A DNA stretch of 64,000 nucleotides, from assembly GCF_014217545.1 (NCBI RefSeq), contig NZ_CP043178.1, positions 558,001 through 622,000 of the forward strand, read 5' to 3'. The stretch is from Pseudarthrobacter sp. NBSH8. Its GTDB lineage: Bacteria > Actinomycetota > Actinomycetes > Actinomycetales > Micrococcaceae. This document shows positions 4,112-38,677 of the stretch, one piece after another (the first letter of the stretch is position 1; the number at the start of each line of letters is the position of its first letter). The notes beneath the pieces were generated by a model that saw only the letters and a program-made list of their open reading frames with translations, was not told the origin of the DNA and searched no databases. Both the position numbers and the translations under genes were made by a program.

Positions 4112-4179
4112 ACGCTCTCTCACTTAACGCAGCTTAACGACCGACGCTCTCTCACTATCTTGAGGATAGTGAGAGAGCG
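4112..4179. repeat. CTCTCTCAC palindromic repeat, copy 1 (three arms)
   Basis: Copy 1 of the dispersed element has one direct arm starting at 4112 (ACGCTCTCTCAC, then TTAACGCAG) and a hairpin at 4145-4179. The hairpin stem is 15 perfect base pairs, CGCTCTCTCACTATC with its reverse complement, around a TTGAG loop. It lies between the convergent ends of the MFS gene (4070) and aceB (4297). Its likely role is a bidirectional transcription terminator. The stem is not followed by a T-run, so termination strength is uncertain. Confidence 0.85.
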
Positions 4180-4296
4180 CCGGCGGGTCACACGGGGTGT
4201 TCCGTCGCCGGGCCGGCGCCCCGGATCTCGGGGATGCCTGTTGCGAAGGGCGTGCCTGCCCGGCAGACGGAAATCTATTCAGTAGCCTGCCGCAGC

Positions 4297-5949
4297 CTAG
4301 GCTGCGGAAAGCTCCTCTTTGGTTGCCTTTTCGCGGGCCTCGGTGAGGTAGCGGGCGTAGGCGGGGAGGGTCAGGAAGGACGGGAAGTCGGGGCTGAGGG
4401 TGACTTCCTCGAAGATGTCGCGGGAGTCTTCGAAGCGGTCGCCGTCGAAGCGTTCCAAGCGTGCGAACTCTTCGTCGAGCAGTTCCTCGATCCACTGGTG
4501 GGTGATGATTTCGCCGCGGTCGGTAATAGCGCTGGCGAACATCCACTGCCAGATCTGGGAGCGGGAGATTTCCGCGGTGGCGGCGTCCTCCATGAGGTTG
4601 TGGATGGCGACGGCGCCGTTCCCGCGGAGCCAGGACTCGATGTAGCGAATGCCTACCTCGATGTTGTTCCGGATGCCCTGCTCGGTGATGGTGCCCTCGG
4701 TGGCGGCCACGTTGATGAGAGCTCGGTCATCGGGGATGACGTCCTCACGGGTGCGGTCCAGCTGGTTGGGACGCTCGCCGAGAGTGGCATCGAAGACTTC
4801 GCGGCAGACCGGAACCAGGTCCGGGTGGGCCACCCAGGAGCCATCGAAGCCATCGCTGGCCTCGCGGGTCTTGTCGGCACGGACTTTCTCGAACGCGTTG
4901 GTGTTGGCGGCCTCGTCCTTGCGGTTGGGGACGGCAGCGGCCATACCGCCGATGGCCATGGCGCCGCGCTTGTGGCAGGCACGGACCAGCTGTTCGGTGT
5001 AGGCACGCATGAACGGCTGCGTCATGGTCACCTGGGCGCGGTCCGGCAGGACGAACCGGGGGCCGCGGGTACGGAAATTCTTGATCAGGGAGAAAATGTA
5101 GTCCCACCGGCCGGCGTTCAGGCCCGACGCGTGATCACGCAGTTCGTAGAGGATCTCCTCCATTTCGAACGCCGCGGTGATGGTCTCGATCAGCACAGTG
5201 GCGCGGATGGTGCCCTGCGGGATGCCCAACAGGTCCTGGGCGAGGATAAAGATGTCATTCCACAGCCGTGCCTCGAGGTGGTTCTCGATCTTGGGCAGGT
5301 AGAAGTACGGGCCCTTGCCCTGGGCCAGGAGGCGGCGGGCGTTGTGGAAGAAGAACAGGCCGAAGTCCACGATGCCGCCGGCCACGGGAGCGCCGTCGAT
5401 GATCATGTGCTTCTCGGGCAGGTGCCAGCCGCGGGGGCGCACCACGATGGTGGGCAGCTCGCCGGCCGGGCGGAGCTTGTATTCCTTGCCCTCAGGACTC
5501 GTGAAGTCGATCCGGCGTTCCAGCGCGTCGGTGAGGTTAAGCTGGCCCTTGATGACGTTCCGCCACGTGGGGGTGGAGGAGTCCTCCATGTCCGCGAGCC
5601 ACACCTTCGCGCCGGAGTTCAGCGCATTGATGGTCATTTTCTTGTCCACCGGACCGGTGATCTCCACCCGGCGGTCCTCCAGGCCAGGGGCCGGGGGAGC
5701 GACGCGCCACGACGGGTCGTTTCGGATGTCCTCGGTTTCGCGGAGGAACCTGGGGTCCTGGCCGGCGGCGATCTCGGCCCGGCGGGTCCGGCGTGCCTGC
5801 AGCAGTTCCTGCCGGCGCTCGGCCGTGGCCCGGTGCAGCTTGGCGACAAACTCCAGTGCATCCGGAGTGAGAACCTCGTCCTGCCGGCAAACAGGCTGCG
5901 CGGTCAAAGTGATCCCGTTGATGGTGAAGCTGTCAGTGAAGCTGTTCAT
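4297..5949 (-). CDS. aceB: Malate synthase A
   Basis: This protein condenses glyoxylate and acetyl-CoA to malate, the second step of the glyoxylate shunt in the cytoplasm. At 550 residues it is the short A isoform rather than the roughly 720-residue G isoform. Recognisable blocks are [46 protein letters not shown] (the family signature) and [13 protein letters not shown]. The start at 5949 follows an AGGAG motif. It lies downstream of aceA on the same strand, separated by 93 nt that contain a long hairpin (5980-6027). The two genes may therefore be partly uncoupled even if read from one promoter. The divergent RamB-like regulator upstream of aceA suggests control by acetate or carbon source. 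Confidence 0.97.
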
Positions 5950-5979
5950 TTCAATCTCCTGGAGCTGTGCCCAAACTGG

Positions 5980-6027
5980 GTAGCACTAAGTGTCGTTGTG
6001 AGCCTCCAAAACGACACTTAGTGCTAC
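5980..6027. repeat. Long inverted repeat between aceA and aceB
   Basis: Two perfect 18-nt arms, GTAGCACTAAGTGTCGTT (5980-5997) and its reverse complement (6010-6027), flank a 12-nt loop. The outer flanks CCCAA and TTGGG extend the symmetry imperfectly. In RNA this would form a very stable stem between the aceA stop and the aceB start. It could attenuate, process or stabilise the aceA-aceB transcript. It differs in sequence from the CTCTCTCAC repeat and appears once in this window. Confidence 0.85.
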
Positions 6028-6042
6028 TTACTTGGGGAAAAT

Positions 6043-7359
6043 TTAGTGGAACTGGCCTTCTTCGGTGGATCCCACCAGTGCCAGGGTTGATGCGTTCGGG
6101 TTGAGCGCAGTTGCGATGTCGTCGAAGTAGCCGGTGCCGACTTCGCGCTGGTGCTTTGTCGCGGTGTAGCCGCGGGACTCGGAGGCGAATTCCTTCTCCT
6201 GCAGCTCGACGTAGGCGCTCATGCCTTCACGGGCGTAACCGTGGGCGAGATCGAACATCGAGTAGTTCAGGGCGTGGAAGCCGGCCAGGGTGATGAACTG
6301 GAACGTGAAGCCCATGGCGCCGAGTTCACGCTGGAACTTGGCGATGGTGGCGTCGTCCAGGTGCTTGCGCCAGTTGAACGACGGCGAGCAGTTGTAGGAG
6401 AGCATCTGGTCCGGGAAGTCAGCCTTGACGGCCTCGGCGAACTTGCGGGCAAGCTCCAGGTCCGGGGTGCCCGTCTCCATCCAGATGAGGTCGGAGTACG
6501 GGGCGTAGGCCTTGGCGCGGGCGATGCAGGGTTCGATGCCGTTGCGGACCTTGTAGAAGCCTTCCGGGGTACGTTCGCCGGTGACGAATTCCTTGTCGCG
6601 GGGATCGACGTCGGAGGTGATCAGGGTGGCTGCCTCGGCGTCGGTGCGGGCGATGACCACCGAAGGGGTGCCTGCGACGTCGGCCGCCAGGCGGGCGGCG
6701 TTCAGGGTGCGGACGTGCTGCTGGGTGGGGATGAGCACCTTGCCGCCGAGGTGGCCGCACTTCTTCTCTGAGGCGAGCTGGTCTTCCCAGTGCACACCCG
6801 ACGCGCCGGCCTGGATCATGGATTTCATGAGCTCGTAGGCGTTCAGCGGGCCGCCGAAGCCGGCCTCGGCGTCGGCAACGATCGGCACCATCCAGTCCTC
6901 AACAGTCTGGATGCCTTCGGAGAATTCAATCTGGTCGGCACGGAGAAGCGCGTTGTTGATGCGGCGCACCACTGTGGGAACCGAGTTGGCCGGGTACAGC
7001 GACTGGTCCGGGTAGGTGTGGCCGGAGTTGTTGGCATCGGCGGCAACCTGCCAGCCGGAGAGATAGATGGCGCGGAGGCCGGCCTTGACCTGCTGCACGG
7101 CCTGGTTGCCGGTCAGGGCGCCCAGTGCGTTGGTGTACCCGCCGGTCTTGTGCTCTTCCGTGAGCTGCTTCCACAGCTTCTCGGAACCGCGGCGGGCCAG
7201 CGTGTGTTCCTCGGAGACACGGCCGCGGAGCTTGACGACATCCGTTGCCTTGTAGTCACGGGTCACACCTTCCCAGCGGGGATTGGCGGCCCACTCGAGC
7301 TCCAGGGCGGCGGCCTGCTCTTCGGGCGTCTGCTGGGTGGGCTCAAATGCTGCAGTCAT
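6043..7359 (-). CDS. aceA: Isocitrate lyase
   Basis: This protein cleaves isocitrate to glyoxylate and succinate, the first committed step of the glyoxylate shunt. The 438-residue length is typical of the bacterial enzyme. The catalytic signature KKCGHLGGK is present (active-site Cys within it). Also present are the substrate and metal-binding blocks [24 protein letters not shown] and the [10 protein letters not shown] segment. The start at 7359 is preceded by an AAGGAGA ribosome-binding site. The gene is divergent from the RamB/ScfR-type regulator at 7513, and the 153-nt region between them presumably holds both promoters. Confidence 0.98.
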
Positions 7360-7512
7360 CGTTGTCTCCTTGATTGAGCTCCGGGTGGTTATCTGCCGGC
7401 CGGAGCTGCTTCGTTGCAGTTCCGGCCGGCTACCCCGGTGCGGTGTTTCTTTCCGTGATTACTACTTTTCAGCACTTCAGAACACTTCTCTAGGGGAAAT
7501 CTATGGAAAGAA

Positions 7513-9027
7513 ATGCACTTCTTCGCGTATGCTCAAGAAATGACGCCTGGAAGCTGGAACCGCGAAGTTGTACTGCCACCGTCGTCCGCCGCCTCCCTGG
7601 AACTGGACGTCATCAGCCTGGGCCGCCGCGTGCGGCATCTGCGCAAGCAGGCCGGGTACACGCTCGATGACCTGGGCGCCGCCGTCGGGACCGCCCCCAG
7701 CCAGTTGAGCCTGATCGAAAACGGCAAACGGGAGCCCAAACTTTCCCTGCTGCAGGCGCTGGCAGCCGCGCTCAACGTGAGTATCGACCAGTTGCTTGGC
7801 GCCGAACCGCCAAGCCGCCGCGCGGCCCTGGAAATTGAGCTGGAACGCTACCAGCGCGGGCCCCTTTATGAGTCCCTTAATCTGCCCAAAATCCGCATCA
7901 GCTCACGGCTCCCAGCCGATGTGCTGGAGGCGCAGGTGGGGCTGCTGCACGAGCTCGAACGCAAGCTTAACGAGCAGGTGGCCACGCCGGAGGAGGCCCG
8001 ACGCGCAAACGGTGAGCTGCGTGCCATGATGCGCGAGCGCGGCAACTACTTTCCGGAGTATGAGGCCGAGGCGCAGAAGGTGCTGGGACTGGTGGGATAC
8101 ACGGCCGGACCGCTGAGCCAGCACGTCATTGCCGACATCGCCGAGAAGCTCGGATTCACCCTCCACCACGTGAGTGACCTGCCGCATTCCACGCGTTCCG
8201 TGACGGATTTGAAGAACCACAGAATCTACCTGACGCAGAGCCAGCGGCAGGATCATGACCCCCGGTCCGTGCTGCTGCAGGCGCTGGGTCACTACGTTTT
8301 GGGGCACGAGACGCCGAAGAACTATGGCGATTTCCTCGCGCAGCGGGTCGCCACCAACTACTTCGCGGCCGCCTTGCTGCTGCCGGAGCAGGCCGCCGTG
8401 GACTACCTGCAGAAAGCCAAGGCTGCCAAGGAAATCGCGGTTGAGGACATCCGTGACGCATTTGCCGTGTCCTACGAGACCGCTGCCCACCGCTTCACCA
8501 ACCTGGCCACGAAGCACCTGGGTATCACCACGCACTTCCAGAAGACCCACCAGAGCGGCATCATCTTCAAGGCCTACGAGAACGACGGAGTGACGTTCCC
8601 GATGGACCATACCGGCGCCATCGAGGGCCAGCCGTCGTGCAAGGCATGGACGTCGCGGGCGGTGTTCGATGTGCCGGACAAGTTCAGCGCCTACAGCCAG
8701 TACACCGACACTCCGTCCGGCACGTACTGGTGCACAGCCCGGACCGAGCGCTCGGTCAACGGCGAGTTCTCGCTGTCGATCGGGGTACCGTACCAGCATG
8801 TGAAGTGGTTCCGCGGCCGGGAAACCACTGCCCGCGAAAAGTCCACCTGCCCGGACCCGAACTGCTGCAAACGTCCACCGGCCGCGCTGGCCTCCGAGTG
8901 GGCGGGCAACGCCTGGCCGTCTGCCCGGGCCCACTCGCACCTGCTGGCCGCGATGCCGCCCGGGGCGTTCCCCGGCGTGGACGAGACCGAGGTCTACAGC
9001 TTTTTGGCGGCGCACTCGGGGAGCTGA
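7513..9027 (+). CDS. XRE-family regulator of RamB/ScfR type
   Basis: The protein has an N-terminal helix-turn-helix of the XRE class (about residues 35-95, LGRRVRHLRKQAGYTLDDLGAAVG followed by PSQLSLIENGKREP). A central IrrE-like metallopeptidase-fold region follows (about 250-330, with LLQALGHYVLGHE), then a C-terminal ScfR/DUF2083-like domain containing CPDPNCCKRPP. This architecture is that of RamB, the regulator of acetate metabolism that controls aceA and aceB in corynebacteria. Its divergent position next to aceA supports the same role. The start is uncertain: ATG 7513 (504 aa) has GGAAAG only 2 nt away, and ATG 7540 (495 aa) has no clear site. I keep the longer form. Confidence 0.85.
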   Translation: MHFFAYAQEMTPGSWNREVVLPPSSAASLELDVISLGRRVRHLRKQAGYTLDDLGAAVGTAPSQLSLIENGKREPKLSLLQALAAALNVSIDQLLGAEPPSRRAALEIELERYQRGPLYESLNLPKIRISSRLPADVLEAQVGLLHELERKLNEQVATPEEARRANGELRAMMRERGNYFPEYEAEAQKVLGLVGYTAGPLSQHVIADIAEKLGFTLHHVSDLPHSTRSVTDLKNHRIYLTQSQRQDHDPRSVLLQALGHYVLGHETPKNYGDFLAQRVATNYFAAALLLPEQAAVDYLQKAKAAKEIAVEDIRDAFAVSYETAAHRFTNLATKHLGITTHFQKTHQSGIIFKAYENDGVTFPMDHTGAIEGQPSCKAWTSRAVFDVPDKFSAYSQYTDTPSGTYWCTARTERSVNGEFSLSIGVPYQHVKWFRGRETTAREKSTCPDPNCCKRPPAALASEWAGNAWPSARAHSHLLAAMPPGAFPGVDETEVYSFLAAHSGS

Positions 9028-9032
9028 CCAGG

Positions 9033-9133
9033 ACGCTCTCTCACCTATTGCGGGTTTTTCAAGGACGCTCTCTCACTGTCCTAAGGAAAGCGAGAGAGCG
9101 TTTGCGTATTTGTTGCAGAAAGTGGGAGAGCGT
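9033..9133. repeat. CTCTCTCAC palindromic repeat, copy 2 (four arms)
   Basis: Two direct arms (9033 and 9064, ACGCTCTCTCAC) are followed by two inverted arms (about 9091, GCGAGAGAGCGT, and 9122, GTGGGAGAGCGT). They form a nested double palindrome of about 101 bp. The inner pair encloses TGTCCTAAGGAAA, and the outer pair encloses the whole unit. It fills the space between the convergent ends of the RamB-like gene (9027) and the TAXI gene (9138). A bidirectional terminator role is likely. Confidence 0.85.
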
Positions 9134-9137
9134 TTCG

Positions 9138-10169
9138 TTACCCGTGGAGTTTCCGATACGCGGCAGCGGCGCCGGGGTGAAGGGGTAAACCGGCGGTGTT
9201 GATCAGGGATTCCGGGCTGAGGAACTGAACGCCCAGGCTGGAGCGCGGGATGAGTTCCTCGGCGTGGACCACCAGCAGTTCGACGGTCCGCTTGACAGTT
9301 TGGTCGTCAAGATCGCTCCGGCACAGCAGCAGGTTCGCGACGCCCACCGTCCACACGGACGGAATCCCCGCGTAGGCGCCCGCCGGGATCAGCACCCGGT
9401 CGTAGAAAACGCCGTATTTGGCCCGCAGCGCCGGCAACAGCGCGGACAGATCAAGGAAACCCAGCCCGACGTCGTCGTTCGCGGCAGCAATGGCCGCGGT
9501 GGGCACTCCTCCTGACCAGAACAACGCGTCCACTGTTCCGTCCCTCAGGGCCGCTAGGCCCCCGTTGAGGCCGAGGCTCAGCATCGTGACGCCGTCGGCG
9601 GTGCCGGCAGTGGTGCTCAGCCCGGCAGCTTCGATCAGCCGCGGAGTGGTCAGCGACGTCCCCGAGCCGGGCTCGCCGACAGCCACGGTCCGGCCGGCAA
9701 GCCCGCCAATGTCCCGGATCCCGCTGTTCCGCCGGATGACGCAGTGGACGTAGTTCTCGTACACCTTTCCCACGGCGGAAAGTCCGACGGCGGGCGTCTC
9801 ACGCACCGCGGTGCGTTGGGCGGCTGAGTCCGCAAGGGCGACGGCGAACGTGGCTTTGCCGGTCAGTAGATGTTCGAGGTTATCCAGGCTGCCACCGGTA
9901 GTCAGCGCCGACGCCTGGCCTGCTACACCGTGACGCTGGAGGGACGCCGCCAACAGCTCGGCGAACTCCAGATAGAAGCCGCCAGGCTCGCCGCCGGCCA
10001 CGGTGACCGTGCCCGGGCGGTCCGTGGGCGTGCACGCACCCAGGGTCGGCAGGAGCAGTCCGGACATCCCGGCGAGCCCGGCCTTGAGGACGGTCCGCCG
10101 CGGGGGAAGTGGCGGAGGCGTGGGCAGGTCCAGCGCTCCGGTCAGGCGCGCTCCGGTCAGGTCAGCCAC
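9138..10169 (-). CDS. TAXI-family solute-binding lipoprotein
   Basis: This is a TAXI-type (TRAP-associated extracytoplasmic immunogenic) substrate-binding protein. A hydrophobic signal, RRTVLKAGLAGMSGLLLPTLGAC, ends in a lipobox cysteine. The mature part begins VTVAGGEPGGFYLEFAELLAASL and contains VAVGEPGSGTSLTTPRLIEAAG, the typical TAXI second-lobe block. A GTG start at 10169 is chosen because it overlaps the kinase stop (GTGGCTGA) and has AGGTGG upstream; a longer frame reaches 10244. No TRAP membrane subunits are present nearby. Its position as third gene of an operon with a response regulator and a kinase suggests that it serves as a periplasmic sensor partner, perhaps for a di- or tricarboxylate (inferred). 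Confidence 0.8.
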   Translation of the reverse strand: MADLTGARLTGALDLPTPPPLPPRRTVLKAGLAGMSGLLLPTLGACTPTDRPGTVTVAGGEPGGFYLEFAELLAASLQRHGVAGQASALTTGGSLDNLEHLLTGKATFAVALADSAAQRTAVRETPAVGLSAVGKVYENYVHCVIRRNSGIRDIGGLAGRTVAVGEPGSGTSLTTPRLIEAAGLSTTAGTADGVTMLSLGLNGGLAALRDGTVDALFWSGGVPTAAIAAANDDVGLGFLDLSALLPALRAKYGVFYDRVLIPAGAYAGIPSVWTVGVANLLLCRSDLDDQTVKRTVELLVVHAEELIPRSSLGVQFLSPESLINTAGLPLHPGAAAAYRKLHG

Positions 10170-11640
10170 GCGGACCCACCTGCTCCGGTCCGGCAAAGGG
10201 TCCCGGCAAACGTCCCGGCAAACGTCCCGGCACGTCCGCTGCACCCGGAAACTCGAGGCGCGCGTTCAGGCCATGTGGCGATGCCTCGGCAAGCACCAGC
10301 CGGCCGCCGTTGGCTGCTGCCAGCTTGTCCACGATGGTCATGCCCAGCCCGGTGCCGCGAGTGGTCCGGTGCACCGGGGACCGCCAGAAGCGGCCCGTGG
10401 CCGCTGTCCGTTCGTCGGCCGAAAGCCCGGGGCCGTCGTCGGACACTTCGATAGCCACCGTGCCTTGGCTGGCGCGGGCAGCGGCCGAGATGTGGCCGCC
10501 GGGAGCGTACTTGATGGCGTTGTTCAGAAGTTCGCCGACCATCTGGGCCAGTTCTGCCGAATTGCAGGCGATGTGCACGGCGGGGGCAGGCGGATCTTCG
10601 AGCAGGATCTGTGCTCCGCTGCGCTGGGCGGCAGGGCCCGCCCGTTCGGTTTCTTCCTGCAGAACCGGATAAGGATCAAGGGGCGCCCGCGCCGCACGTG
10701 ACGTGGTTCCCAGCGGCCCCCGGGCGGAGTCTTCAGAGGCCCTGTGCTCGGCGGCCGCCAGCTTCAGTACCCCGTCCAGGATCTCCTCCACGCGTTCGAG
10801 CTCGGCCAGCACCCCTGCCGCGGCGTCGTGTTCCCGGGCGGTCTTAAGTTCCAGCTGCAGCAGATCGATCCTGAGCCGCAGGGCGCCCACGGGATTGCGC
10901 AGTTCGTGCGACGTGTCAGCTATCAGTTGCCGTTGGGAGTCGAGGCTGTTGCTGACGGTCTGCGCCATGGTGGTGAATGAACGGCTCAGCTCCCGCAGCT
11001 CCGGCGGCCCGTCCTCGGGGAGCCGGCCGGTCCGTCCTGTCGCCTCAAGTTCGGTGACGGCCGCGTTCAGCCGGTTCACAGGGCGCAGCACCCACCGGGT
11101 TACGCCGGCCGCGCCCAGGAGGAGCGCCGCCGCCAGGGCTGCCGCCGCCAATCCCACCACGATCCACCGCCCCCGAAGTTTCTGCCGGGCAGCGTCCAGG
11201 TTGACCTCGAGAACGGCCTCGCCCAGGACCTGGCTGGCGCTGCCAAAGGAACGGGAGATCACCTCGGAGGACGGCCCGAACGGCTGCAGCGGGGCGAGCG
11301 TGGTGTCGTTGAGGTTCAGGTTCGCCCTGGCCACCGAATCCCGGACGTCCGGCCTATCCTCGCTCAGGCCGCCCGCGCGAAGGGTTCCCTGCTGGAGGCG
11401 GATGAGGACTCCCTCCCCGTAAAGTCCGGAATACCGGTCCATCTCCGTCTGTAATTGCCCGGTCTCGCCGGTGGAGGCTGCGTCAAATGCCACTTGCGCC
11501 AGGCGGTTGAGCGACGCGGCACGGTTGATCTGCAGTTCCTGGGTCAGTTCCCGGCTGGCGGAGGACAGGATGGCGTTGGAGGTGATGATGACGATGAGCA
11601 GCGCCATGACGCTGAGGACGCCCAGGACGCGCAGTTTCAC
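10162..11640 (-). CDS. Sensor histidine kinase
   Basis: This 492-residue membrane kinase has an N-terminal transmembrane helix (about 5-25), an extracytoplasmic loop of about 150 residues and a second helix (about 175-200). A HAMP-like linker follows, then HisKA with the phospho-acceptor His in ADTSHELRNPVGAL (about residue 250), then HATPase_c with NNAIKYAPGG, DDGPGL and GTGLGMTIV. It is cotranscribed with the response regulator (4-nt ATGA overlap at 11637-11640) and with the TAXI gene. The C-terminal tail contains a proline/glycine repeat (PGRLPGRLPG) encoded by a 12-bp tandem repeat near 10197-10240. Ligand specificity is not visible. Confidence 0.92.
   Translation of the reverse strand: MKLRVLGVLSVMALLIVIITSNAILSSASRELTQELQINRAASLNRLAQVAFDAASTGETGQLQTEMDRYSGLYGEGVLIRLQQGTLRAGGLSEDRPDVRDSVARANLNLNDTTLAPLQPFGPSSEVISRSFGSASQVLGEAVLEVNLDAARQKLRGRWIVVGLAAAALAAALLLGAAGVTRWVLRPVNRLNAAVTELEATGRTGRLPEDGPPELRELSRSFTTMAQTVSNSLDSQRQLIADTSHELRNPVGALRLRIDLLQLELKTAREHDAAAGVLAELERVEEILDGVLKLAAAEHRASEDSARGPLGTTSRAARAPLDPYPVLQEETERAGPAAQRSGAQILLEDPPAPAVHIACNSAELAQMVGELLNNAIKYAPGGHISAAARASQGTVAIEVSDDGPGLSADERTAATGRFWRSPVHRTTRGTGLGMTIVDKLAAANGGRLVLAEASPHGLNARLEFPGAADVPGRLPGRLPGPFAGPEQVGPRG
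10197..10240. repeat. 12-bp tandem repeat in the kinase C-terminus
   Basis: The unit CCGGCAAACGTC occurs twice in tandem, flanked by degenerate copies (CCGGCAAAGGTC-like and CCGGCACGTC). It encodes the (PGRL) repeat at the end of the histidine kinase. Being a multiple of three, copy-number change would alter length but not frame. Confidence 0.7.
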
Positions 11641-12305: not shown

Positions 12306-12490
12306 GTGCTGTTCCCTTGTTCGTTGAGCGGGCACCTGCAACCTGCCCGCTTTGGAGGTTACCCCTTCCCCCGCTGAAACCTAAGGAAGTGTTAGGAAAT
12401 GCCCTCCCACGTTGGATGTGCCTTGGCTCACGCATAACTTGGATCAGGTCCTCGGTGTTCAAGGGGGACCGCCAATTTCGAGGAGGAACC

Positions 12491-14048: not shown

Positions 14049-14117
14049 ACGCTCTCTCACTTCCTGCAGGTTTTCTCCAAACGCTCTCTCACATTCTTAA
14101 GGAAAGTGAGAGAGCGT
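14049..14117. repeat. CTCTCTCAC palindromic repeat, copy 3 (three arms)
   Basis: One direct arm lies at 14049-14060, followed by a hairpin at 14081-14117. In the hairpin, ACGCTCTCTCACATTC is matched by a nearly complementary arm around a TTAAGG centre. The fourth arm is missing. Unlike the other copies it lies between two genes on the same strand: the MHS transporter and poxB, about 100 nt upstream of the latter. Confidence 0.85.
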
Positions 14118-15967: not shown

Positions 15968-15981
15968 GCGCGCCGAGCTGC

Positions 15982-16302
15982 GTTCCTTCCGCTCTGGTCC
16001 TCGGTGAGGCCCTGCTGACCAATGGCGGCGACGGCTCCAACGGAAACATCGTGTCCTCGCCCGGGAGCCTCCTGCGGAAATGCGGACGGAAATCGCGGAT
16101 GCCTTCGACGCTGGAGCATTGGAGCGGGTGCAGATCCAGCTACCGCGCTGGGACCGCTGTCACTCAGATCAACGGAGCTGTCTCCAGCGCTCCGCCGGGG
16201 CCTGAGCGGTCCATTAGCTTCAACCGGCCGTTCCACTACCAGATCGTGCACGTTGAAACGGGCCTGCCGCTCTTCATGGGAACGGTGGCCGACCCGCGGT
16301 AG
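15982..16302 (+). pseudogene. Serpin (serine protease inhibitor), decayed remnant
   Basis: Three separated serpin pieces can be read. First is VPSALVLGEALLTNGGDGSNGNIVSSPGSLL (from 15982), the N-terminal region with the NxxxSPxS box. Then, in a shifted frame, comes ALERVQIQLPRWD (about 16100-16150), the central strand block. Last, in the final frame, comes VTQINGAVSSAPPGPER followed by ISFNRPFHYQIVHVETGLPLFMGTVADPR and a stop at 16302, the classic serpin C-terminal hinge and FxRPF end. A bacterial serpin has about 370-420 residues, whereas this stretch could encode only about 107. Internal deletions and frameshifts have destroyed the gene. The remainder of the 16.0-16.4 kb gap is the repeat that follows. 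Confidence 0.8.
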
Positions 16303-16403
16303 ACGCTCTCTCAGTTAATGCAGGAAAACGCCAAACGCTCTCTCACTTTCCCTAAGAAAGTGAGAGAGCGTTTGGGAAGAACCCGCGTTAAGTGAGAGAG
16401 CGT
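16303..16403. repeat. CTCTCTCAC palindromic repeat, copy 4 (four arms)
   Basis: This is the full bipartite form. Direct arms start at 16303 (ACGCTCTCTCAG, then TTAATGCAG) and 16335. A perfect inner hairpin spans 16335-16371 (ACGCTCTCTCACTTTC with its complement around a CCTAAG centre). The last inverted arm (TTAAGTGAGAGAGCGT) ends at 16403. It lies directly after the serpin remnant and before the convergent pdxK-like gene. Confidence 0.88.
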
Positions 16404-16424: not shown

Positions 16425-17279
16425 TTAGCGCGGGCCACCCTGCCAGAGGGCGTCGAACGGGGCGCCTGACGCCACCCGGTTGCGGATTCCGGCCGTGACA
16501 AAGACCTTGGCGGACCGGGCGGCCTCCAGAGGTGTGGCGCCCTTGGCCAGTTCAGCCGTCACAGCCGCGGCCAACGAGCAGCCGGCACCGGACACGGCCA
16601 CCTCGCCCACCTTCGGAGCGCTGAGGACTTCAAGGGTCTCGCCGTCGTAGTAAACGTCGACGGCGTCGGGGCCTGCCAGCCGCACGCCACCCTTGGCGAG
16701 AACCGCTGCACCGCTGAGCTCATGGATGCGGATGGCGGAGGCCTTCAAGGATTCGATGTCGGTGATCGCCAGGCCAGACAGCGATTCGGCTTCGAAGTGG
16801 TTGGGCGTGACGAACGTGGCCAGCGGCAGGATCTGCGCCTTCAGGGCCTGGTCCGTGTCCAGCGCGTGGCCCGGCTCCTGGCCCTTGCAGATCAGCACCG
16901 GATCCAGCACGACGTTCCGGAACCGGCCGGCTTCCAGTGCTGCCGCGACCGTGCTGATGGTGGCCGGGCTGCCCAGCATGCCGATCTTTACGGTGTCCAG
17001 GACAGGCCGGCCCGACGCCGGACCGTAGGCCGCCGTCGTGGCTTCCAATTGGTCCGCAATGACCTGCTGGTCCACCGGCACGAAGCGGTGGTTCCAGTTG
17101 TCGCTCGGATCGAAGGACACGATGCAGGTCAGGTTGGCGATGCCAAATACGCCCAGTTCCTGGAACGTTTTCAGATCGGCCTGGGCCCCGGCGCCACCCG
17201 TTGCTTCGGACCCCGCGATTGTCAGGACGACTGCGGGAGCGGACACGGGGGACTGGACGGCAGCTGAAGCAAAAGTCAT
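16425..17279 (-). CDS. pdxK: Pyridoxal/hydroxymethylpyrimidine kinase (PdxK/ThiD-like)
   Basis: This ribokinase-fold kinase phosphorylates pyridoxal or pyridoxine, or hydroxymethylpyrimidine. The 284 residues begin with a VVLTIAGSEATGGAGAQADLKTF block, contain VTPNHFEAESL, and end with the anion hole AVSGAGCSLAAAVTAELAKG, in which Cys follows GxG. That Cys and the SEATGGAG start favour the PdxK branch over typical ThiD (GSDxSGGAG). This is a family-level inference. It is the last gene of a three-gene operon; its ATG overlaps the preceding stop (17276-17279). Confidence 0.85.
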   Translation of the reverse strand: MTFASAAVQSPVSAPAVVLTIAGSEATGGAGAQADLKTFQELGVFGIANLTCIVSFDPSDNWNHRFVPVDQQVIADQLEATTAAYGPASGRPVLDTVKIGMLGSPATISTVAAALEAGRFRNVVLDPVLICKGQEPGHALDTDQALKAQILPLATFVTPNHFEAESLSGLAITDIESLKASAIRIHELSGAAVLAKGGVRLAGPDAVDVYYDGETLEVLSAPKVGEVAVSGAGCSLAAAVTAELAKGATPLEAARSAKVFVTAGIRNRVASGAPFDALWQGGPR

Positions 17280-19289: not shown

Positions 19290-19300
19290 GGTTTCTCCTC

Positions 19301-29197: not shown

Positions 29198-29202
29198 TGA
29201 AA

Positions 29203-30258: not shown

Positions 30259-30338
30259 TGGGGCTACTTTCTGGGGAAAAGTGTGCGGACCGACGGTCTT
30301 GGCGAGCCTGTAGTTAGGGTTGGCTCACTCGAGAAACT

Positions 30339-30357
30339 GTAGGTTAGCCAAACCTAA
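30339..30357. promoter_or_regulatory. IdeR/DtxR-type iron box upstream of fbpA
   Basis: GTAGGTTAGCCAAACCTAA matches the actinobacterial iron-regulator consensus TTAGGTTAGGCTAACCTAA at most positions, and both TTAGG-like ends face inward. A second, weaker half-site-like stretch (TTAGGGTTGGCTCAC) lies at 30314-30328. This predicts Fe2+-dependent repression of fbpABC. Confidence 0.8.
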
Positions 30358-30429
30358 GACACCAAGCGGCACGGGCCTTAAGTGATAAGGATCACACGCA
30401 TTACGCAACTGTTGCGTGCCCTAATTGGT

Positions 30430-31617: not shown

Positions 31618-31719
31618 CCGTTTAGCCTAGCGGGTGCGGCCCGCCCGAATTTCAGTTAAGATTCACTAACTATTGTTTCGCGCCGGTCACCGATGTCGGA
31701 GCCGCATCAAGGAGGATGT

Positions 31720-32544
31720 ATGGACGTCTTGGGTACTGTCGCGCTGATTACGGGTGGGGCCTCCGGGCTGGGGGCTGCCACGGCGAAGCGCCTGTTCGAC
31801 GCCGGCGCCTCGGTGGTGCTGATCGACCTGCCCTCCTCCGCCGGTGCGGCCTACGCCGCCGAGCTCAACGCGGCAGCGCTGAACGCGGTCGGCAACGGCT
31901 CCGCCGGCGGCTCAGGGGCACGGGCCGCCTTTGTCCCCGCAGACGTCACCAACGAAGCTGAGGTGCAGGCCGCCGTGGACACCGCCGTGGCACTCGGGCC
32001 TCTCCGCATGGTTGTGAACTGCGCCGGCGTCGCCACGCCGGGCAAGGTCCTGGGCCGGGACGGCGTCCTCCCGCTGGACACATTCAACCGCGTCATCCAG
32101 GTTAACCTCATCGGGACTTTCAACGTGCTGCGTCTGGCGGCCGCGGCCATGGTTTCAACGGAACCCGTGAACACTGCGCTGGGCGGCCCTGAGCGCGGCG
32201 TCATCATCAACACCGCCTCCGTGGCTGCCTTCGACGGACAGATCGGCCAGCCGGCCTACGCCGCCTCCAAGGGTGCCGTCGCCGCCATGACTCTGCCGCT
32301 GGCCCGGGAACTGGCCCGATCGCTGGTGCGCGTGGTGACCATCGCGCCGGGCATTTTCGAAACACCCATGATGGCATCGCTGTCTGACGAAGCCCAGGCT
32401 TCCCTGGGCCGGCAGGTCCCGCACCCGTCCCGTCTGGGCAAGCCCGCGGAATACGCCAGCTTGGTGGCCCACATTGTGGATAATGCGATGATCAACGGCG
32501 AGACCATCCGGCTCGACGGTGCCATCCGGATGGGACCGAAATGA
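31720..32544 (+). CDS. Short-chain dehydrogenase, 3-hydroxyacyl-CoA dehydrogenase (type II)-like
   Basis: This 274-residue classical SDR starts right at the TGxxxGxG motif ([22 protein letters not shown]). Other hallmarks are NCAGVA (NNAG equivalent) and the active-site S-x12-Y-x3-K ([23 protein letters not shown]). The similarity is to HSD10/3-hydroxyacyl-CoA dehydrogenase type II enzymes that oxidise short branched 3-hydroxyacyl-CoAs. The ATG at 31720 follows AGGAGG. Its stop overlaps the next gene's ATG (32541-32544), so it is coupled to an acyl-CoA dehydrogenase. This supports a role in acyl-CoA degradation. Confidence 0.9.
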
Positions 32545-33851
32545 GCCGGCCCCGCACCACCGAACCGCCGACCCCCGGGCCGGCCATTTCGAAACCCGCC
32601 GCTTCGGAACCGGCTACTTCGGAACCGGCTACTTCGGAACCGGCGATCGACGACCTGCCCACCGCCGATTTTTTCGCTTACGAGTCCTTCCTCAGCGCCA
32701 AGGAGCGGGCCAAGCTGGCCGAGCTGCGCGAGTTCCTGGCCACGGAGATCGCCCCGCACGCGTCGGACTGGTGGAACAAGGCGGAGTTCCCGGCGCACAT
32801 CCTGCCCAAGCTCGCCGCGCTGGAGCTGAGCACGCCGGCGCAGCGCGGCTACAGCAACCTCTTCGCAGGACTGGTCATCGCCGAGATGACGCGCGTCGAT
32901 ACGTCGATCGCCACCTTTTTCCTGGTCCACCACGATCTGTTTGTGGAGTCGCTGTACGGTTTTGGTTCGGCCGGCCAGAAGGCGAGGCTGCTTGCGGACG
33001 CTTCAAGCCTGCGCATCACCGGCGCGTTCGCGCTGACCGAGCCCGGCCATGGTTCCGATGTGGCCGGCGGCATGGAAACCCGTGCCCGGCGCATTTCCAG
33101 CGCAACGGGAGAGCCCGACGGCGACGGCGACTCGTGGGTGCTCAACGGCGCCAAGCGCTGGATCGGGAACGGGACGTTCTGCGACTTCATGCTGGTGTGG
33201 GCCAGAGACGAGGCTGTGGCCGCCAACGGGCAGGGTGCCGTCCGCGGGTTCATCGTGGATGCCTCCTTGCCGGGTGTGAGCCGGAGCCGGATCGAGAACA
33301 AGATTGCGCTCCGCACCGTGCAGAACGCGGACATTGTGTTTGAGGATGTCCACGTCGCCGAGTCCGACCGGTTCGCCGGCATCAGCAGTTTCGAAGACAC
33401 CAACCAGCTCCTGCGTGGCTCGCGGATCATGGTGGCGTGGCAGGCCGTGGGGCAGCAGCTGGCTGCGTTCGACGTCGCCCGGCAGTACGCCGTCGAACGC
33501 CACCAGTTCGGCCGGCCGCTGGCGAAATTCCAGCTCATCCAGCAGCAGCTGGTGACCATGCTGGGCAACGCGGTGGCGAGCATGGCCATGATGGCGCGTG
33601 TAGCCCAATTGCAGGACGACGGCGCGGCGGACATGCCGCAGGTGGCCCTCGCCAAGGCGTACACCAGCGCCCGGATGCGCGAGACCGTGGCGCTGGGCCG
33701 GTCCATCCTCGGCGGCAACGGAATCGTGACCGACTACCGGATGGCCAAAATCTTCGCCGACGCCGAGGCTATCTACACCTACGAGGGCTCGTTTGAAATC
33801 AACACGCTCATTGTGGGCCGGGCGGTCACCGGCGTCTCAGCGATCGTCTGA
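32541..33851 (+). CDS. Acyl-CoA dehydrogenase (glutaryl-CoA dehydrogenase-like)
   Basis: This FAD-dependent dehydrogenase has 436 residues. The FAD/substrate loop is [19 protein letters not shown]. The middle beta-domain block is [26 protein letters not shown]-terminal [19 protein letters not shown] and a catalytic-base region [23 protein letters not shown] resemble glutaryl-CoA dehydrogenase, where the Glu of YEG is the base. The first 35 residues are a Ser/Glu/Pro/Ala-Thr repeat (SEPAT units) encoded by a 15-bp tandem repeat, and precede the real fold. It is coupled to the upstream SDR. The precise substrate (glutaryl or branched short-chain CoA) is not decided by sequence. Confidence 0.9.
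32602..32644. repeat. 15-bp tandem repeat in the acyl-CoA dehydrogenase 5' end
   Basis: The unit CTTCGGAACCGGCTA occurs at 32602, 32617 and, slightly shortened, 32632, with a more degenerate copy before. It encodes SEPAT repeats in the unstructured N-terminus. Being 15 bp, copy-number change keeps the frame. Confidence 0.75.
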
Positions 33852-33927
33852 CCGGGCGGCACCGGCGCAAATGAGCAGCTGATCCCTTCAAAACTTGGAT
33901 CTGAGCGGATTGGCTGCCAGTTCGCGC

Positions 33928-34770
33928 TCAATCAGCGAGGAGAGGCTGCTTTTCGCCGGCTTCGATCTTCGCGTCCAGGCTGTTGCCTTTCACGGGCATG
34001 GGGCAGGTGCCGTATGGGGTGAAGGCGCTGGGGTAGTTGATGGCGCGGTTGAAGTCCAGGACCACAGTGGCGTTCCCTGACGCATCAACCCGGGGTCTGG
34101 GGGTTGAGACTTTGCGCCACTCATCCGTTGATTCGCCGTTGGTGTCGTCGTGGAACGTGATGGTCAGCGCCCCCAGTTTTTCCTCCTCGGCGTGCAGCCG
34201 GTACTCGTGGTCAATGCCCGGCAGCCGGAAAACCACCTCGCCCGCCGAATAATGCACGCCTTCCACCAGGGGATTGGCGGTTCCGATCGGGATCGCCACC
34301 GGCTCGGGATACGCCTCGTAGGCTGCCTCGATCACCATGTCCGGGTTGTAGCCGAAGGTGGGAACGCCGTCGAACTCCGTCAGCACCGGCGACCCGGAAT
34401 CGTGGGTCCGGATGGCGTACCGGTCCGCGCGCATGGCGAGTTCCACCACTACCTGCTGCCCGTCCGCACCGCCGAACTGCACCCACATCAGGGATTCCTC
34501 GTTGGTGAGGGAGGCCGTAATGGTCCCGTCCACGGGCTCGCCGGTTTCCGCCAGCGTCAGACCGTCGTGCGCCGCAGCGGTGAGCGTCGCCGTCGTGCCG
34601 TCCGTTGACCAGAAGCCGGGGGAAAGGTCGACGGCGGCGGGCCGGGATTCCAGCCACTGGAAGGAGGTGAGGGTCAGCCAGCCGTGGCGGGTGGCGAGGG
34701 CTTTGTTCCGGTTGGTGCGGAAACGCTGCCAGCGTTCCAGCTGCGCGGCGGCGTTGGCGGTGGTATTCAT
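33928..34770 (-). CDS. DUF1684-family protein
   Basis: This 280-residue protein has the family start WQRFRTNRNKALATRHGWLTLTSFQWLE, FGYNPDMVIEAAYEAYP and the well-conserved C-terminal block VLDFNRAINYPSAFTPYGTCPMPVKGNSLDAKIEAGEK. The family has no established biochemical role. The ATG at 34770 follows GGAGGA; a longer frame running to 35628 is a shadow over the neighbouring gene. It is divergent from the F420-reductase-like gene (144 nt between). Confidence 0.88.
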   Translation of the reverse strand: MNTTANAAAQLERWQRFRTNRNKALATRHGWLTLTSFQWLESRPAAVDLSPGFWSTDGTTATLTAAAHDGLTLAETGEPVDGTITASLTNEESLMWVQFGGADGQQVVVELAMRADRYAIRTHDSGSPVLTEFDGVPTFGYNPDMVIEAAYEAYPEPVAIPIGTANPLVEGVHYSAGEVVFRLPGIDHEYRLHAEEEKLGALTITFHDDTNGESTDEWRKVSTPRPRVDASGNATVVLDFNRAINYPSAFTPYGTCPMPVKGNSLDAKIEAGEKQPLLAD

Positions 34771-34914
34771 GATTCCTCCAAAAGGCGTCTGCATACGGTT
34801 CATTCCACCACGGCCGCGCTGCTGCCGGGGCTCTTGTTCTGCCGCTGGCGGAGAGTAGCGTCGAAGGCGGCGGAGTATCGTTCCAGAACTCCCACGGCTG
34901 AACTTGGAGGAACC

Positions 34915-35595
34915 ATGAAAATCGCGGTCCTGGGTACGGGTTTTGCAGGCCGGACCCTGGCGGGCGCGCTGTCCGCACTGGGACACGACGTGGTGGTGGG
35001 AACCCGCGACCCGGGCAAGACTCTTGCCCGCAGCGCGCCGGACGCCATGGGCACGCCACCCTTCAGCGAGTGGCACGTAGCCAACCAGCACATAGCACTG
35101 GAAACGTTCGCGGAGGCAGCAGCCGGGGCGGAACTGATACTCAATGCAACGAACGGCGCGGGTGCGCTCAGCGCCCTCGGTGCGGCGGGCTCGGCCAACC
35201 TTTCGGGGAAAGTAGTGGTGGACGTTTCCAACCCGCTCGACTTCTCCCAGGGCATGCCGCCGGTCCTGAACCCGGTCAACACGGACAGTAACGCCGAACG
35301 GATCCAGCACGCGTTCCCGGAGGCGCGGGTGGTCAAAACCCTCAACACCATGAACGCGGGGCTGATGGTTGATCCCGGACGGCTGGGCGGAGGGGACCAC
35401 TCGGTGTTTGTCTCCGGCGACGACGCGAGCGCCAAGAGCACCGTGACGGCCCTTCTCCGGGAGCTGGGCCACCGCGATATTATTGACCTCGGAGACATCG
35501 CCACCGCCCGGGGAGCGGAGATGATGCTCCCGGTGTGGCTGCGCCTGTGGTCGGCGTTTGGTACTGCGGATTTCAATTTCAAGATCGTCCGCTGA
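34915..35595 (+). CDS. NADPH-dependent F420 reductase-like oxidoreductase
   Basis: This 226-residue Rossmann protein starts KIAVLGTGFAGRTLAGALSALGHDVVVGTRDPGK, with GTGxxG and an Arg next to the beta-2 end that suits NADP(H). The blocks VVVDVSNPLDFSQG and RVVKTLNTMNAGLM place it in the NADP-oxidoreductase, coenzyme F420-dependent family (NpdG-like). The C-terminus is reductase-like and short. Whether it truly uses F420 is not visible. The start has GGAGGAACC in front. Confidence 0.82.
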   Translation: MKIAVLGTGFAGRTLAGALSALGHDVVVGTRDPGKTLARSAPDAMGTPPFSEWHVANQHIALETFAEAAAGAELILNATNGAGALSALGAAGSANLSGKVVVDVSNPLDFSQGMPPVLNPVNTDSNAERIQHAFPEARVVKTLNTMNAGLMVDPGRLGGGDHSVFVSGDDASAKSTVTALLRELGHRDIIDLGDIATARGAEMMLPVWLRLWSAFGTADFNFKIVR

Positions 35596-35747
35596 CGTCC
35601 GGCGCGGCAGTGGCGGGGACCAGCGCAATATCTGAGACGGATTCCGCCTTCGCCATCCCGTGCGGGTAGCATCGATAGCTAGTAACGTGGCTCACAGTAT
35701 CCAGCGCAGTGTACTAGCCAAGTCCGAACCCTCGAAAGACAGTTTCC

Positions 35748-38570
35748 ATGGCTAACACTGCAATGAATTCCGCAACCGACCTCGCCTCTGAACTGAGGGC
35801 CGATGTCCGGCGCGTCTCCACCCTGCTGGGCGAATCCCTGGTCCGCCAGCACGGGCCCGAACTCCTGGATCTGGTGGAGCAGGTGCGCCTCCTCACCAAG
35901 GAGTCCAAGGAAGCCGCCCGTGGCGGAGCCGATGCTACCGGCCCCTGGAGCGCGCACGACGTCGTCGAGCAGGTCCGCGAACTGCTCGGCTCCCTGCCGA
36001 TCGAGCAAGCCACTGACCTGGTGCGTGCGTTCGCGTTCTACTTCCACCTTGCCAACGCGGCCGAGCAGGTCCACCGGGTCCGCGGCCTGCGGACGCGGCA
36101 GGAGAAGGACGGGTGGCTGGCCAAGGCCGTCACCGAAATCGCCGCGAAGGCCGGGCCCGAAGTACTGCAGGAAGTGGTCAACGGGCTGGACGTCCGCCCC
36201 ATCTTCACCGCCCACCCCACCGAGGCTTCGCGACGTTCCGTGCTGGACAAGATCCGCAGGCTCTCCGACGTCCTGGCCGAGCCCACGAAGGAAGGCACCA
36301 CCGCGCGCCGCCGGCAGGACCGCCAGCTTTCGGAAGTCATCGACCAGATGTGGCAGACCGACGAACTGCGCCAGGTCCGCCCCACCCCGGTGGATGAGGC
36401 CCGCAACGCGATCTACTACCTCGGCGGCATCCTGACCGACGCCATGCCCGAGATGCTCTCGGACTTCTCGGAACTGCTCGGTGAGCACGGCGTCAGCCTT
36501 TCGTCCCAGGACGCACCCATCCGGTTTGGGTCCTGGATCGGCGGCGACAGGGACGGCAACCCCAACGTCACGGCGGCGGTCACCAGGGAAATCCTGCAGA
36601 TCCAGAACCAGCACGCCGTCCGCATCAGCATCGCGATGATGGACGAGCTGATCTCCATCCTGTCCAACTCCACCGCTTTGTCCGGCGCGGACCAGTCGCT
36701 GCTGGACTCCATCGATGCGGACCTGAAGAAGCTGCCGGGCCTGGACCGGCGCGTCCTGGAGCTCAACGCCCAGGAGCCCTACCGCCTCAAACTCACGTGC
36801 ATCAAGGCCAAGCTCATCAATACGGGCAAACGGGTTGCCGCGGACTCCACCCACGAGCACGGCCGTGACTACCGCTCCACCGAGGAACTCCTCGACGACC
36901 TCGAACTGCTGGAGCTGTCCCTCCGCAACCACTCGGCGTCGCTCGTCGCCGATGGCGCGCTGGCCCGGGTCCGCCGCGCCGTCGCCTCCTTCGGCCTGCA
37001 CCTGGCCACCCTGGACATCCGCGAGCACGCCGACCACCACCATGACGCCGTTGGCCAGCTGATGGACCGGCTGGGCGGCCCCGGCATCCGCTATGCGGAA
37101 CTGAGCCGCGTTGAACGCTTTGAGGTTCTCGGTTCGGAGCTGGCGTCACGCCGGCCGTTGTCCGGCCACCCGATTAAGCTCGACGGCGTCGCTGACGGCA
37201 CGTACGACGTCTTCCGCGAGGTCCGCCGCGCCCTGCGCACATATGGCCCGGACGTCATCGAGACCTACATTATTTCCATGACCCGCGGCGCGGACGACGT
37301 CCTGGCCGCGGCTGTCCTGGCCCGCGAGGCAGGCCTGATCAACCTGTTCGGCGAATCTCCTTACGCCAAGATCGGGTTCGCGCCCCTGCTGGAGACCGTG
37401 GAGGAACTGCGAGCCTCGGCGGAGATCGTGGACCAGCTGCTGTCCGTTCCGTCCTACCGAGACCTGGTCCGGCTGCGCGGCGACGTCCAGGAAATCATGC
37501 TGGGTTACTCGGATTCCAACAAGGAATCCGGCGTGATGACCAGCCAGTGGGAGATCCACAAGACCCAGCGGAACCTGCGCGACGTGGCGGCCAAGCATGG
37601 CGTCCGTGTCCGGTTGTTCCACGGTCGCGGCGGGTCCGTGGGCCGCGGCGGCGGACCCACCTATGACGCCATCATGGCCCAGCCCAACGGCGTGCTCGAG
37701 GGCGAGATCAAGTTCACCGAACAGGGCGAGGTCATCTCGGACAAGTACTCGCTGCCGGAGCTGGCCCGGGAAAACCTGGAGCTGTCCCTCGCGGCGGTAC
37801 TCCAGGGCTCGGCCCTGCACCGGGACCCGCGCACGTCGGACGACCAGCGCGAACGGTACGGGCACGTTATGGAGATCATCTCCGACGGCGCCTTCGACCG
37901 GTACCGGAAGCTGATTGACCATCCGGACCTGCCCGCGTACTTCCTGGCCTCCACTCCGGTGGAGCAGCTCGGCTCGCTGAATATCGGCTCCCGTCCGTCC
38001 AAACGCCCGGATTCCGGGGCAGGGCTCGGCGGCCTGCGCGCCATTCCGTGGGTGTTCGGCTGGACGCAGTCCCGGCAGATCGTGCCGGGCTGGTTCGGTG
38101 TTGGCTCGGGACTGAAGGCTGCCCGCGAGGCCGGAAACTCCGCCCAGCTGGTGGAGATGATGCAAAACTGGCACTTCTTCCGGTCCGTTGTCTCTAACGT
38201 TGAGATGACGCTGGCCAAAACGGACCTGGACATCGCCGGGTACTACGTGGCCACCCTGGTTCCCAAGGAATTGCACCACATTTTCGCGGCCATCCGTGAA
38301 GAGTTCGAACTCACGGTCACCGAGATCCAGAACCTGACCGGTGAGAATGTGCTCCTGGACGCGCAGCCGACGCTCAAGCGTTCGCTTGAGATCCGGGACC
38401 AGTACCTGGATCCCATCAGCTACCTGCAGGTGGAACTGCTCCGCCGTGTGCGGGCTGCCCAGGGCGGCGAAGGCGAGAGCATCAGCGGTGCCGAGATCGA
38501 CGAACGTCTCCAGCGGGCCATGCTGATCACCGTTAACGGGGTAGCGGCCGGCCTGCGCAACACGGGCTAA
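35748..38570 (+). CDS. ppc: Phosphoenolpyruvate carboxylase
   Basis: This anaplerotic enzyme converts PEP and bicarbonate to oxaloacetate. The 940 residues match the bacterial family. Catalytic His is in [13 protein letters not shown]. The metal/bicarbonate region is [17 protein letters not shown], the C-terminal active-site segment is [19 protein letters not shown], and the glycine-rich loop is [18 protein letters not shown]. The C-terminus ends in the conserved NTG. It begins after GAAAGA and has a 152-nt upstream region. It ends at copy 5 of the CTCTCTCAC repeat, convergent with the FecE-like gene. Confidence 0.98.
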
Positions 38571-38576
38571 CCCCGG

Positions 38577-38677
38577 ACGCTCTCTCACTTAATGCGGCTT
38601 TCCCCCCGACGCTCTCTCACTTTCTTAGGGAAAGTGCGAGAGCGTTGGCGGTTTTCTTACGTTAAGTGAGAGAGCGT
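38577..38677. repeat. CTCTCTCAC palindromic repeat, copy 5 (four arms)
   Basis: Direct arms at 38577 (ACGCTCTCTCAC, then TTAATGCGG) and 38609 are followed by inverted arms ending at about 38645 (GTGCGAGAGCGT, one mismatch) and 38677 (TTAAGTGAGAGAGCGT). It starts 6 nt after the ppc stop and ends 19 nt before the convergent FecE stop. Confidence 0.87.

Follow-up and report, generated by a model that had tools for sequence, protein, structure and literature searches.

Periodic arrays of a 12-bp polar arm at gene 3' ends in Pseudarthrobacter sp. NBSH8 and related genomes look like elements for ending or insulating transcription

The window analysed here is a stretch of 64,000 nucleotides from Pseudarthrobacter sp. 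NBSH8 (contig NZ_CP043178.1, positions 558,001 to 622,000). It contains five copies of a palindromic element that had been noticed in a first-pass annotation made from the letters alone. These copies belong to a genome-wide family of arrays of a short polar arm, situated at the ends of genes; to judge from the sequence, they have the look of a hitherto undescribed mechanism that ends or insulates transcription. The explanation that we tentatively favour is that they are host 3'-end terminator/insulator elements, read by a putative polar DNA-binding factor and carrying an RNA hairpin in addition.

In the NBSH8 genome (4.06 Mb) 24 clusters were found, and the possibility raised in the first-pass annotation that only these few copies exist thus falls away. 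Arm pairs at a spacing of 32 bp (at most 3 mismatches) numbered 43, against 0 for the reversed pattern, and single arms (at most 1 mismatch) numbered 89 against 5. The repeat unit consists of a polar arm of 12 bp (outline ACGC-NNNN-TCAC; consensus ACGCTCTCTCAC) and a spacer of 20 bp. It recurs with a strict period of 32 bp, which is about three helical turns, and its AT-rich positions (TTAA at 13-16 and a W tract at 23-26) lie approximately one turn apart. Half-arrays hold 1 to 9 arms each and either face an opposed half (++/--, the slash marking the centre) or stand alone; longer tandem arrays occur in relatives. No opposed half lies inside 70 bp in 8 of the 24 NBSH8 clusters and in 28 of the 56 clusters of genome G058. 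In six genomes, opposed neighbours (within 120 bp) are invariably ordered + then -; the order - then + is also present in 2 of 87 elements from a contig collection. The 78 loci of that collection were picked by an exact pattern with a 13-bp gap between the halves, which inflates the frequency of this gap wherever they are included. Gene calls are those of the analysis script and were not curated, and the regions from G020, G059 and G160 come mainly from forward-strand listings.

The position of the elements relative to genes is biased. Of 141 elements in the six genomes, 61 have convergent, 65 tandem and 7 divergent neighbours, and 8 were left unassigned. As background, intergenic regions of 50 bp or more that hold no element were taken from the same fetched stretches; they divide into 27 convergent, 119 tandem and 96 divergent (divergent depletion, Fisher P = 2e-14). 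The elements are thus enriched at 3' ends; the first-pass annotation had named a lack of such enrichment among the signs that would count against its proposal. Genomes such as G035, G003, G026 and G009 carry a different arm and are called here the second group, a label for arm type and not for a tested clade. Their 24 elements (loci L301-L330) comprise 15 convergent, 8 tandem and 1 divergent; this set supersedes a mixed-arm set of 33 elements (19 convergent, 13 tandem, 1 divergent; one-way arrays 2 sense, 4 antisense). In 20 of 24 cases in NBSH8 and 36 of 56 in G058, the element has a stop codon facing it at a distance of no more than 40 bp. One-way arrays between tandem genes in the six genomes are oriented in the sense of transcription 20 times and antisense 7 times (P = 0.019).

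The sites are largely inherited. An element is found at the same end of the orthologous gene in G058 for 22 of the 24 NBSH8 elements, and counterparts were also present among the elements sampled from G020 (14 among 27) and G059 (7 among 17). Moreover, 9 of the 24 have counterparts with another arm among just 24 second-group elements sampled. In the reverse comparison, 26 of the 56 G058 elements have an NBSH8 counterpart and 30 are without one among the loci compared, which indicates that gain or loss also occurs between species. The site of copy 2 carries arrays in G058 and G020 and other-arm arrays in L305-L307 and L311; its 13-bp centre of the TTTC..GAAA type and its 32-bp period are kept, and the arm changes from ACGCTCTCTCAC to ACGCCCCATCAC, ACGCGCCATCAC or ACGCCCGCTCAC. 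Two further sites were followed by locus searches that matched 48 and 61 of 61 genomes, the best 30 loci of each being used. Downstream of ppc, inspection by eye of these best matches identified an array in 17 genomes (several arm types), a CTATCACTTATGGTCC-type hairpin with a related arm in 9 and neither in 4; at the site of copy 3, upstream of poxB, an array is present in 7 of the 30 best-matching genomes.

The paired arm (at most 2 mismatches) was detected in 42 of 60 other genomes of the genus, with 0 to 189 matches per genome, whereas the 38 genomes searched from the order's other families had none. A relaxed pattern, run on 245 genomes of the family, matched 28 of them, belonging to 3 of 32 genera (one genus through a single match), and a broader arm pattern at 1 mismatch matched 24 of 245 genomes in 2 genera. 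Named records with the exact ++- core (the 78 loci) come from Arthrobacter, Pseudarthrobacter, one Paenarthrobacter and a Micrococcaceae metagenome-assembled genome. Of the 18 genus genomes negative for the paired arm, 16 were searched for arm ACGCCCCATCAC at the same spacing and 8 contained it; four of these had 66, 39, 25 and 21 matches and the others 1 to 3 each. Arm types are mixed within some genomes (G001, G136), so recognition would not be strictly specific. The window gave 0 Rfam matches above the gathering score, and no description of this repeat family was found in titles and abstracts of the open-access literature for Arthrobacter, Micrococcaceae or the arm strings; the part of the RepRanger table concerned lists Arthrobacter livingstonensis (figures 5,512 and 705) and does not name this family (PMC12306157). 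A blastn search of copy 5 with its flanks against plasmids matched 11 records, several through the coding end of ppc. The best match (H1, Arthrobacter StoSoilB13) covers query positions 3-121, comprising the end of ppc and the element's left half; the match to a Pseudarthrobacter plasmid is 28 bp long. A phage or plasmid origin was rejected, as the viral collection contained no exact match to the arm pair.

Two sets of evidence bear on how the arrays are read, and they point different ways; we think that both are right. The first is the gap between opposed halves, which is mainly 2-4, 13, 23-24 or 34-37 bp. Counted by orthologous group, the gaps other than 13 and up to 40 bp were 2 (4), 3 (3), 4 (3), 7, 23 (2), 24 (3), 28, 34, 35 (2) and 37. 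These values are phased at 10.5 bp (Rayleigh R = 0.71, P = 2e-5, n = 21; gap 13 is left out of the Rayleigh tests), and a scan of periods from 8 to 14 peaks at 10.5, a height reached by 1 in 10000 random sets. The phasing persists when the 34-37 class is removed (R = 0.70, P = 2e-4, n = 17); a gap of 35 may be 3 + 32 with a decayed arm. The gap lists were transcribed by hand and one group can yield several values; a pooled test counts some loci twice, and the test by group (n = 21) is the reliable one. Second-group gaps, partly from shared loci, were 3 (2), 12, 13 (6), 23 (2), 24 (2), 29 and 70. Since a hairpin loop has no reason to change in steps of a helical turn, these steps are taken as evidence at the DNA level, and the quantisation points to a protein on double-stranded DNA.

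The second set concerns the hairpin that the two innermost arms are predicted to form. Of the deviations from the consensus, 50 of 109 are shared in inner-inner pairings, compared with 4 of 74 in outer-outer pairings and 18 of 97 and 8 of 78 between direct neighbours (arms with more than 3 mismatches omitted, more than 4 in the second group); after shuffling, the shared fraction has a mean of 0.03 and a maximum of 0.13. With one element per orthologous group the fraction is 0.52 for inner arms and 0.02 to 0.25 for other pairings, and in the second group the counts are 10 of 16 (inner-inner), 0 of 13 (outer-outer), and 4 of 10 and 2 of 19 (direct neighbours). Compensatory pairs such as TCGC..GCGA, ATGC..GCAT and ACCC..GGGT are found. 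Compensatory hairpin changes of the kind looked for in intrinsic terminators are therefore present in the inner arms only, with a mutational cause possible. In the spacers, positions 18-20 are matched left to right, and the W tract at 11-14 is anti-matched, with T on one side and A on the other in 32 of the 41 elements that have clear tracts in both halves (19 to 6 groups, 2 ties). A-type tracts largely belong to the inner units of gap-13 elements, where T and A tracts number 84 and 63; elsewhere they number 80 and 9. At tandem sites the T tract is on the sense strand in 20 groups to 6 (2 neutral, P = 0.009) and the sense strand has the more stable fold in 20 groups to 8 (P = 0.036); convergent groups have no strand bias (10 to 14). 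The first-pass annotation had proposed, among other things, a domesticated bidirectional terminator. The place of the elements, their covarying inner hairpin and their bias to the sense strand agree with the terminator part of this proposal; its two-way part fits less well, since the T tracts of gap-13 elements tend to be confined to a single strand, a pattern that speaks for one direction. Like intrinsic terminators, the elements have a predicted hairpin at a gene end and, at tandem sites, a T tract near the stem that prefers the sense strand; unlike them, they usually have several GC-rich bases between arm stem and T tract, share an arm sequence, have outer arms outside the hairpin and exist as hairpin-less copies.

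From these observations we infer a putative host DNA-binding protein, which would occupy successive arms on one face of the helix. As the arms are mostly aligned with the reading direction of the upstream gene, the bound protein would meet RNA polymerase leaving that gene and might stop it. At convergent genes two half-arrays face each other in register and, where they abut, the innermost arms would form a hairpin in the transcript, so that a closed element would be part protein site and part RNA hairpin. Shared positions combined with a group-specific arm suggest a trans-acting reader of the arm, and dispersed arms of 12 bp seem too short for homologous gene conversion. To judge from the helical register, this reader probably sits on DNA, and the 3'-end position, the sense polarity and the occurrence of other hairpins at the same place suggest that its role is to stop or insulate transcription.

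Phage stoperators offer a precedent. Those of the Mycobacteriophage L5 type are described, in the relevant passages of PMC9283540, as asymmetric 13-bp sites, many per genome, in short intergenic spaces, where a bound protein stops elongation, and does so in one orientation only. The arrays resemble them, as far as those passages go, in being short, asymmetric, intergenic and oriented with transcription (20 arrays in sense and 7 in antisense, but an even 2 and 2 in the second group). The stoperator binder is a phage-encoded repressor, and the same passages make no mention of 32-bp arrays or hairpins (PMC9283540). Unlike stoperators, the arrays are chromosomal and at gene 3' ends, and their binder is only putative. 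By analogy, the phage stoperator is the nearest worked-out system, in likeness of mechanism and not of membership. A bolder proposal is that of a cellular stoperator, in which a predicted host protein, in helical register on 32-bp arrays, would act as a general transcription stop at dozens of gene ends; its recognition sequence would have diverged within the genus (ACGCTCTCTCAC, ACGCTCCCTCAC, ACGCCCCATCAC, ACGCCCGCTCAC), and the chromosomal sites would have followed it without moving. We regard this as possible and rather doubtful. The arm series at shared sites would be a natural record of how one binding specificity shifted on a whole-genome scale. In the usual view, hairpins or Rho produce the ends of bacterial genes, and an array of polar protein sites, if true, would be a third arrangement, nearer to phage stoperators or to the terminator arrays of eukaryotic rDNA.

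Several results weigh against arrays that stop transcription through a polar protein and a hairpin. Of the 27 one-way tandem arrays, 7 are antisense, and one-way arrays of the second group are evenly divided (2 sense, 2 antisense); 7 of the 141 elements lie between divergent genes. Neither arm pattern was present in 8 of the 16 genus genomes tried for ACGCCCCATCAC, so the family is not demonstrated in every genome of the genus. The covariation of inner arms could result from quasi-palindrome correction, a mechanism that acts during replication, and not from selection. When the hairpin core alone is considered, the sense bias is weaker (19 to 8 groups, P = 0.052; Wilcoxon P = 0.22). The preference of stem mismatches (G.U versus A.C) for the sense strand at tandem sites, 56 to 33 (P = 0.019), is not corrected for orthology. 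A generic terminator scan marked only 1 of the 5 window copies (copy 4, - strand), and its totals of 13 and 3 sites are no excess over shuffled sequences (12.2 and 2.3).

The first-pass annotation had also suggested a repetitive extragenic palindrome (REP)-like protein-binding element. Its protein-binding part agrees with the 3'-end bias and the helical phasing, which argues for a protein; its REP part fails on the tag and on the REP-associated tyrosine transposase (RAYT), both of which are missing. REPs are defined, in the portion of PMC3733652 concerned, as palindromes of 20-40 bp that carry the tetranucleotide GTAG or CGTC on one side. The consensus unit, ACGCTCTCTCAC plus 20 nt, is without GTAG, and GACG (CGTC on the other strand) arises only if spacer base 20 is G, as in 0.50 of units. 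Like the REP/RAYT and CGTC-tagged repeats of that portion, the arrays are dispersed, palindromic and extragenic, mostly between unidirectional or convergent genes (PMC3733652), being enriched at 3' ends and depleted between divergent genes in the second group too (15/8/1 of 24). They differ from what is described there in having no constant GTAG/CGTC tag, no RAYT in the NBSH8 genome, a direct periodicity of 32 bp, helical gap classes and different arms at shared sites (PMC3733652). The Y1/RAYT family (PF01797) was not found in the NBSH8 genome and was found in 1 of 61 genus genomes (G032), other transposase families not having been searched. A RAYT/REPtron system was rejected on this absence from the NBSH8 genome.

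A related alternative concerns architecture. Bacterial interspersed mosaic elements (BIMEs) of enterobacteria are mosaics of direct and inverted units at 3' ends, for which protein binding has been proposed; the arrays share this build, although neither their arm sequence nor their 32-bp period matches the enterobacterial units. A BIME-like element would be a binding site for gyrase or a nucleoid protein at gene ends, the places where positive supercoils accumulate, and would have no immediate role in termination. The REP/BIME location bias and the divergent depletion agree with this, AT tracts about one turn apart and 10.5-bp phasing fit wrapped DNA, and the raw counts place 87 of 112 clusters (NBSH8, G058, G020 and G059) in the origin-side half of the chromosome. 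However, once the sites are thinned to one per 50 kb this excess is significant in none of the four genomes, and neither the strand polarity nor the sense-strand T tracts are predicted; we consider such a role rather unlikely. We hold it to be unlikely, too, that the arrays are RNA-only 3'-end elements, whose hairpins terminate weakly or protect mRNA ends and whose arms are conserved for RNA reasons. Inner-arm covariation, sense-strand folding with the T-tract bias, and the other hairpin downstream of ppc in 9 of the 30 best-matching genomes would follow from it; the strict 32-bp period, the helical gap steps, the arrays without an opposed half and the outer arms that do not covary would not. 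As the whole answer it was rejected because of the gap quantisation and the one-way arrays.

Rho loading is suggested by the composition of the arms, seen directly in the sequence: their sense RNA (ACGCUCUCUCAC, ACGCCCCAUCAC) is C-/U-rich and G-poor and often comes just after the stop codon, and the sense orientation prevails by 20 to 7. Yet the spacers contain G, antisense arrays exist, and Rho needs no fixed 32-nt spacing, ACGC/TCAC flanks or helical phasing; Rho loading sites are an improbable account of the arrays. Finally, the first-pass annotation had named a miniature inverted-repeat transposable element (MITE)-like mobile element. Dispersal, palindromy and the range of 0 to 189 matches per genus genome would suit a MITE or other transposable element that is now immobile or slow, as would a poxB upstream site filled in 7 of the 30 best-matching genomes only and the 30 of 56 G058 elements without an NBSH8 counterpart among the loci compared. 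Mobility is not borne out by the positions conserved at orthologous gene ends (22 of 24 NBSH8 sites common to G058, with sites shared across arm types), and the arm number is variable, the NBSH8 genome contains no Y1/RAYT transposase and the viral collection gave no exact match to the paired arm; we regard this origin as very improbable. The arrays as protein-read ends of transcription units remain the explanation that we prefer.

The five copies hold all 18 arms of the window (at most 2 mismatches; shuffled windows gave a mean of 5.95 and a maximum of 11, and 0 of 100 reached 18), in the orders first described (Table 1). The coordinates stand as first given, except that the third arm of copy 1 ends at 4180 instead of 4179. 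The fixed but unlike continuations noticed in the first-pass annotation recur in 103 distinct gap-13 elements as TTNNTGC after outer arms and TTTC..GAAA between inner arms. All five copies are intergenic by the script's gene calls, with convergent genes around copies 1, 2, 4 and 5 and two + genes around copy 3, and the layout of inner arms and centre given for copy 5 is the same in the other four.

Table 1. Array copies in the window and parts of copy 5 (window positions)
Feature	Position	Strand	Arm order	Gap (bp)	Context or content
Copy 1	4112..4180		++/-	13	Between MFS transporter gene (+, ends 4070) and malate synthase gene (-, 4297-5949)
Copy 2	9033..9133		++/--	13	Between helix-turn-helix (HTH)/M78 regulator gene (+, ends 9027) and NMT1-like gene (-, from 9138)
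Copy 3	14049..14117		++/-	13	Between sugar/MFS transporter gene (+, ends 13953) and thiamine pyrophosphate (TPP)-enzyme (pyruvate oxidase-like) gene (+, from 14219)
Copy 4	16303..16403		++/--	13	Between decayed serpin-like gene end (+) and phosphomethylpyrimidine kinase gene (-, 16425-17279)
Copy 5	38577..38677		++/--	13	Between phosphoenolpyruvate (PEP) carboxylase gene (+, 35763-38570) and ABC transporter ATPase gene (-, 38697-39440)
Copy 5, inner arms and 13-bp centre	38609..38645				TTTCTTAGGGAAA; predicted hairpin, one arm mismatch
Copy 5, left-half 20-bp spacer	38589..38608	+			Holds TTAATGCGG; W tract (TTT) near spacer positions 11-13

The serpin remnant recognised beside copy 4 was upheld by comparison of its end, PLFMGTVADPR-stop, with PLFMGTVADPRS at the end of an intact serpin-like gene in G020 and G059; its 98-aa frame had no match in Pfam. 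The intact gene occupies the place of this remnant in G020 (L212) and G059 (L224), and a gene of similar length does so in G058 (L242). In the window the decayed gene spans 15968-16302, and its 3' end and the adjoining array are kept in the remnant.

At NBSH8 positions 2969484-2970693 an endonuclease-like gene, which we take to be DUF559-like, lies between a + and a - half-array. The idea of a cassette was dropped because flanking genes link this locus to L199 of G020, L159 and L170 of G058, and L320, so that it looks inherited. A DnaA-box-like CCTGTGGATAACTT follows shortly after the array in L036, L159, L199 and L230; in the first three of these loci an endonuclease-like gene comes after it, between + and - half-arrays.

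At L159, L161, L165, L172 and L174 genes seem, by the script's calls, to enter the element and end inside it, for example at a TAA in the spacer (overlaps of 1 and 16 bases). Downstream of poxB in the second-group loci L257, L261 and L266, a canonical-looking terminator hairpin was seen by eye at the inner-arm positions, flanked by outer arms of the CGCCATCAG/CGCCCCATCAC type, 32 bp apart. Another palindrome family, likewise dispersed, pairs CTATCACTTATGGTCC with an inverted copy whose start is about 33 bp from its own; allowing up to 2 mismatches, G006 and G029 have 24 matches apiece, the NBSH8 genome has 3, and G058 and G020 have 0. A further long near-perfect palindrome, GTAGCACTAAGTGTCG...CGACACTTAGTGCTAC, lies at 5970-6037 of the window, with the malate synthase gene on one side and the following - strand gene on the other; its exact 15-mer TAGCACTAAGTGTCG occurs twice (both strands) in 1 of 330 loci (L103).

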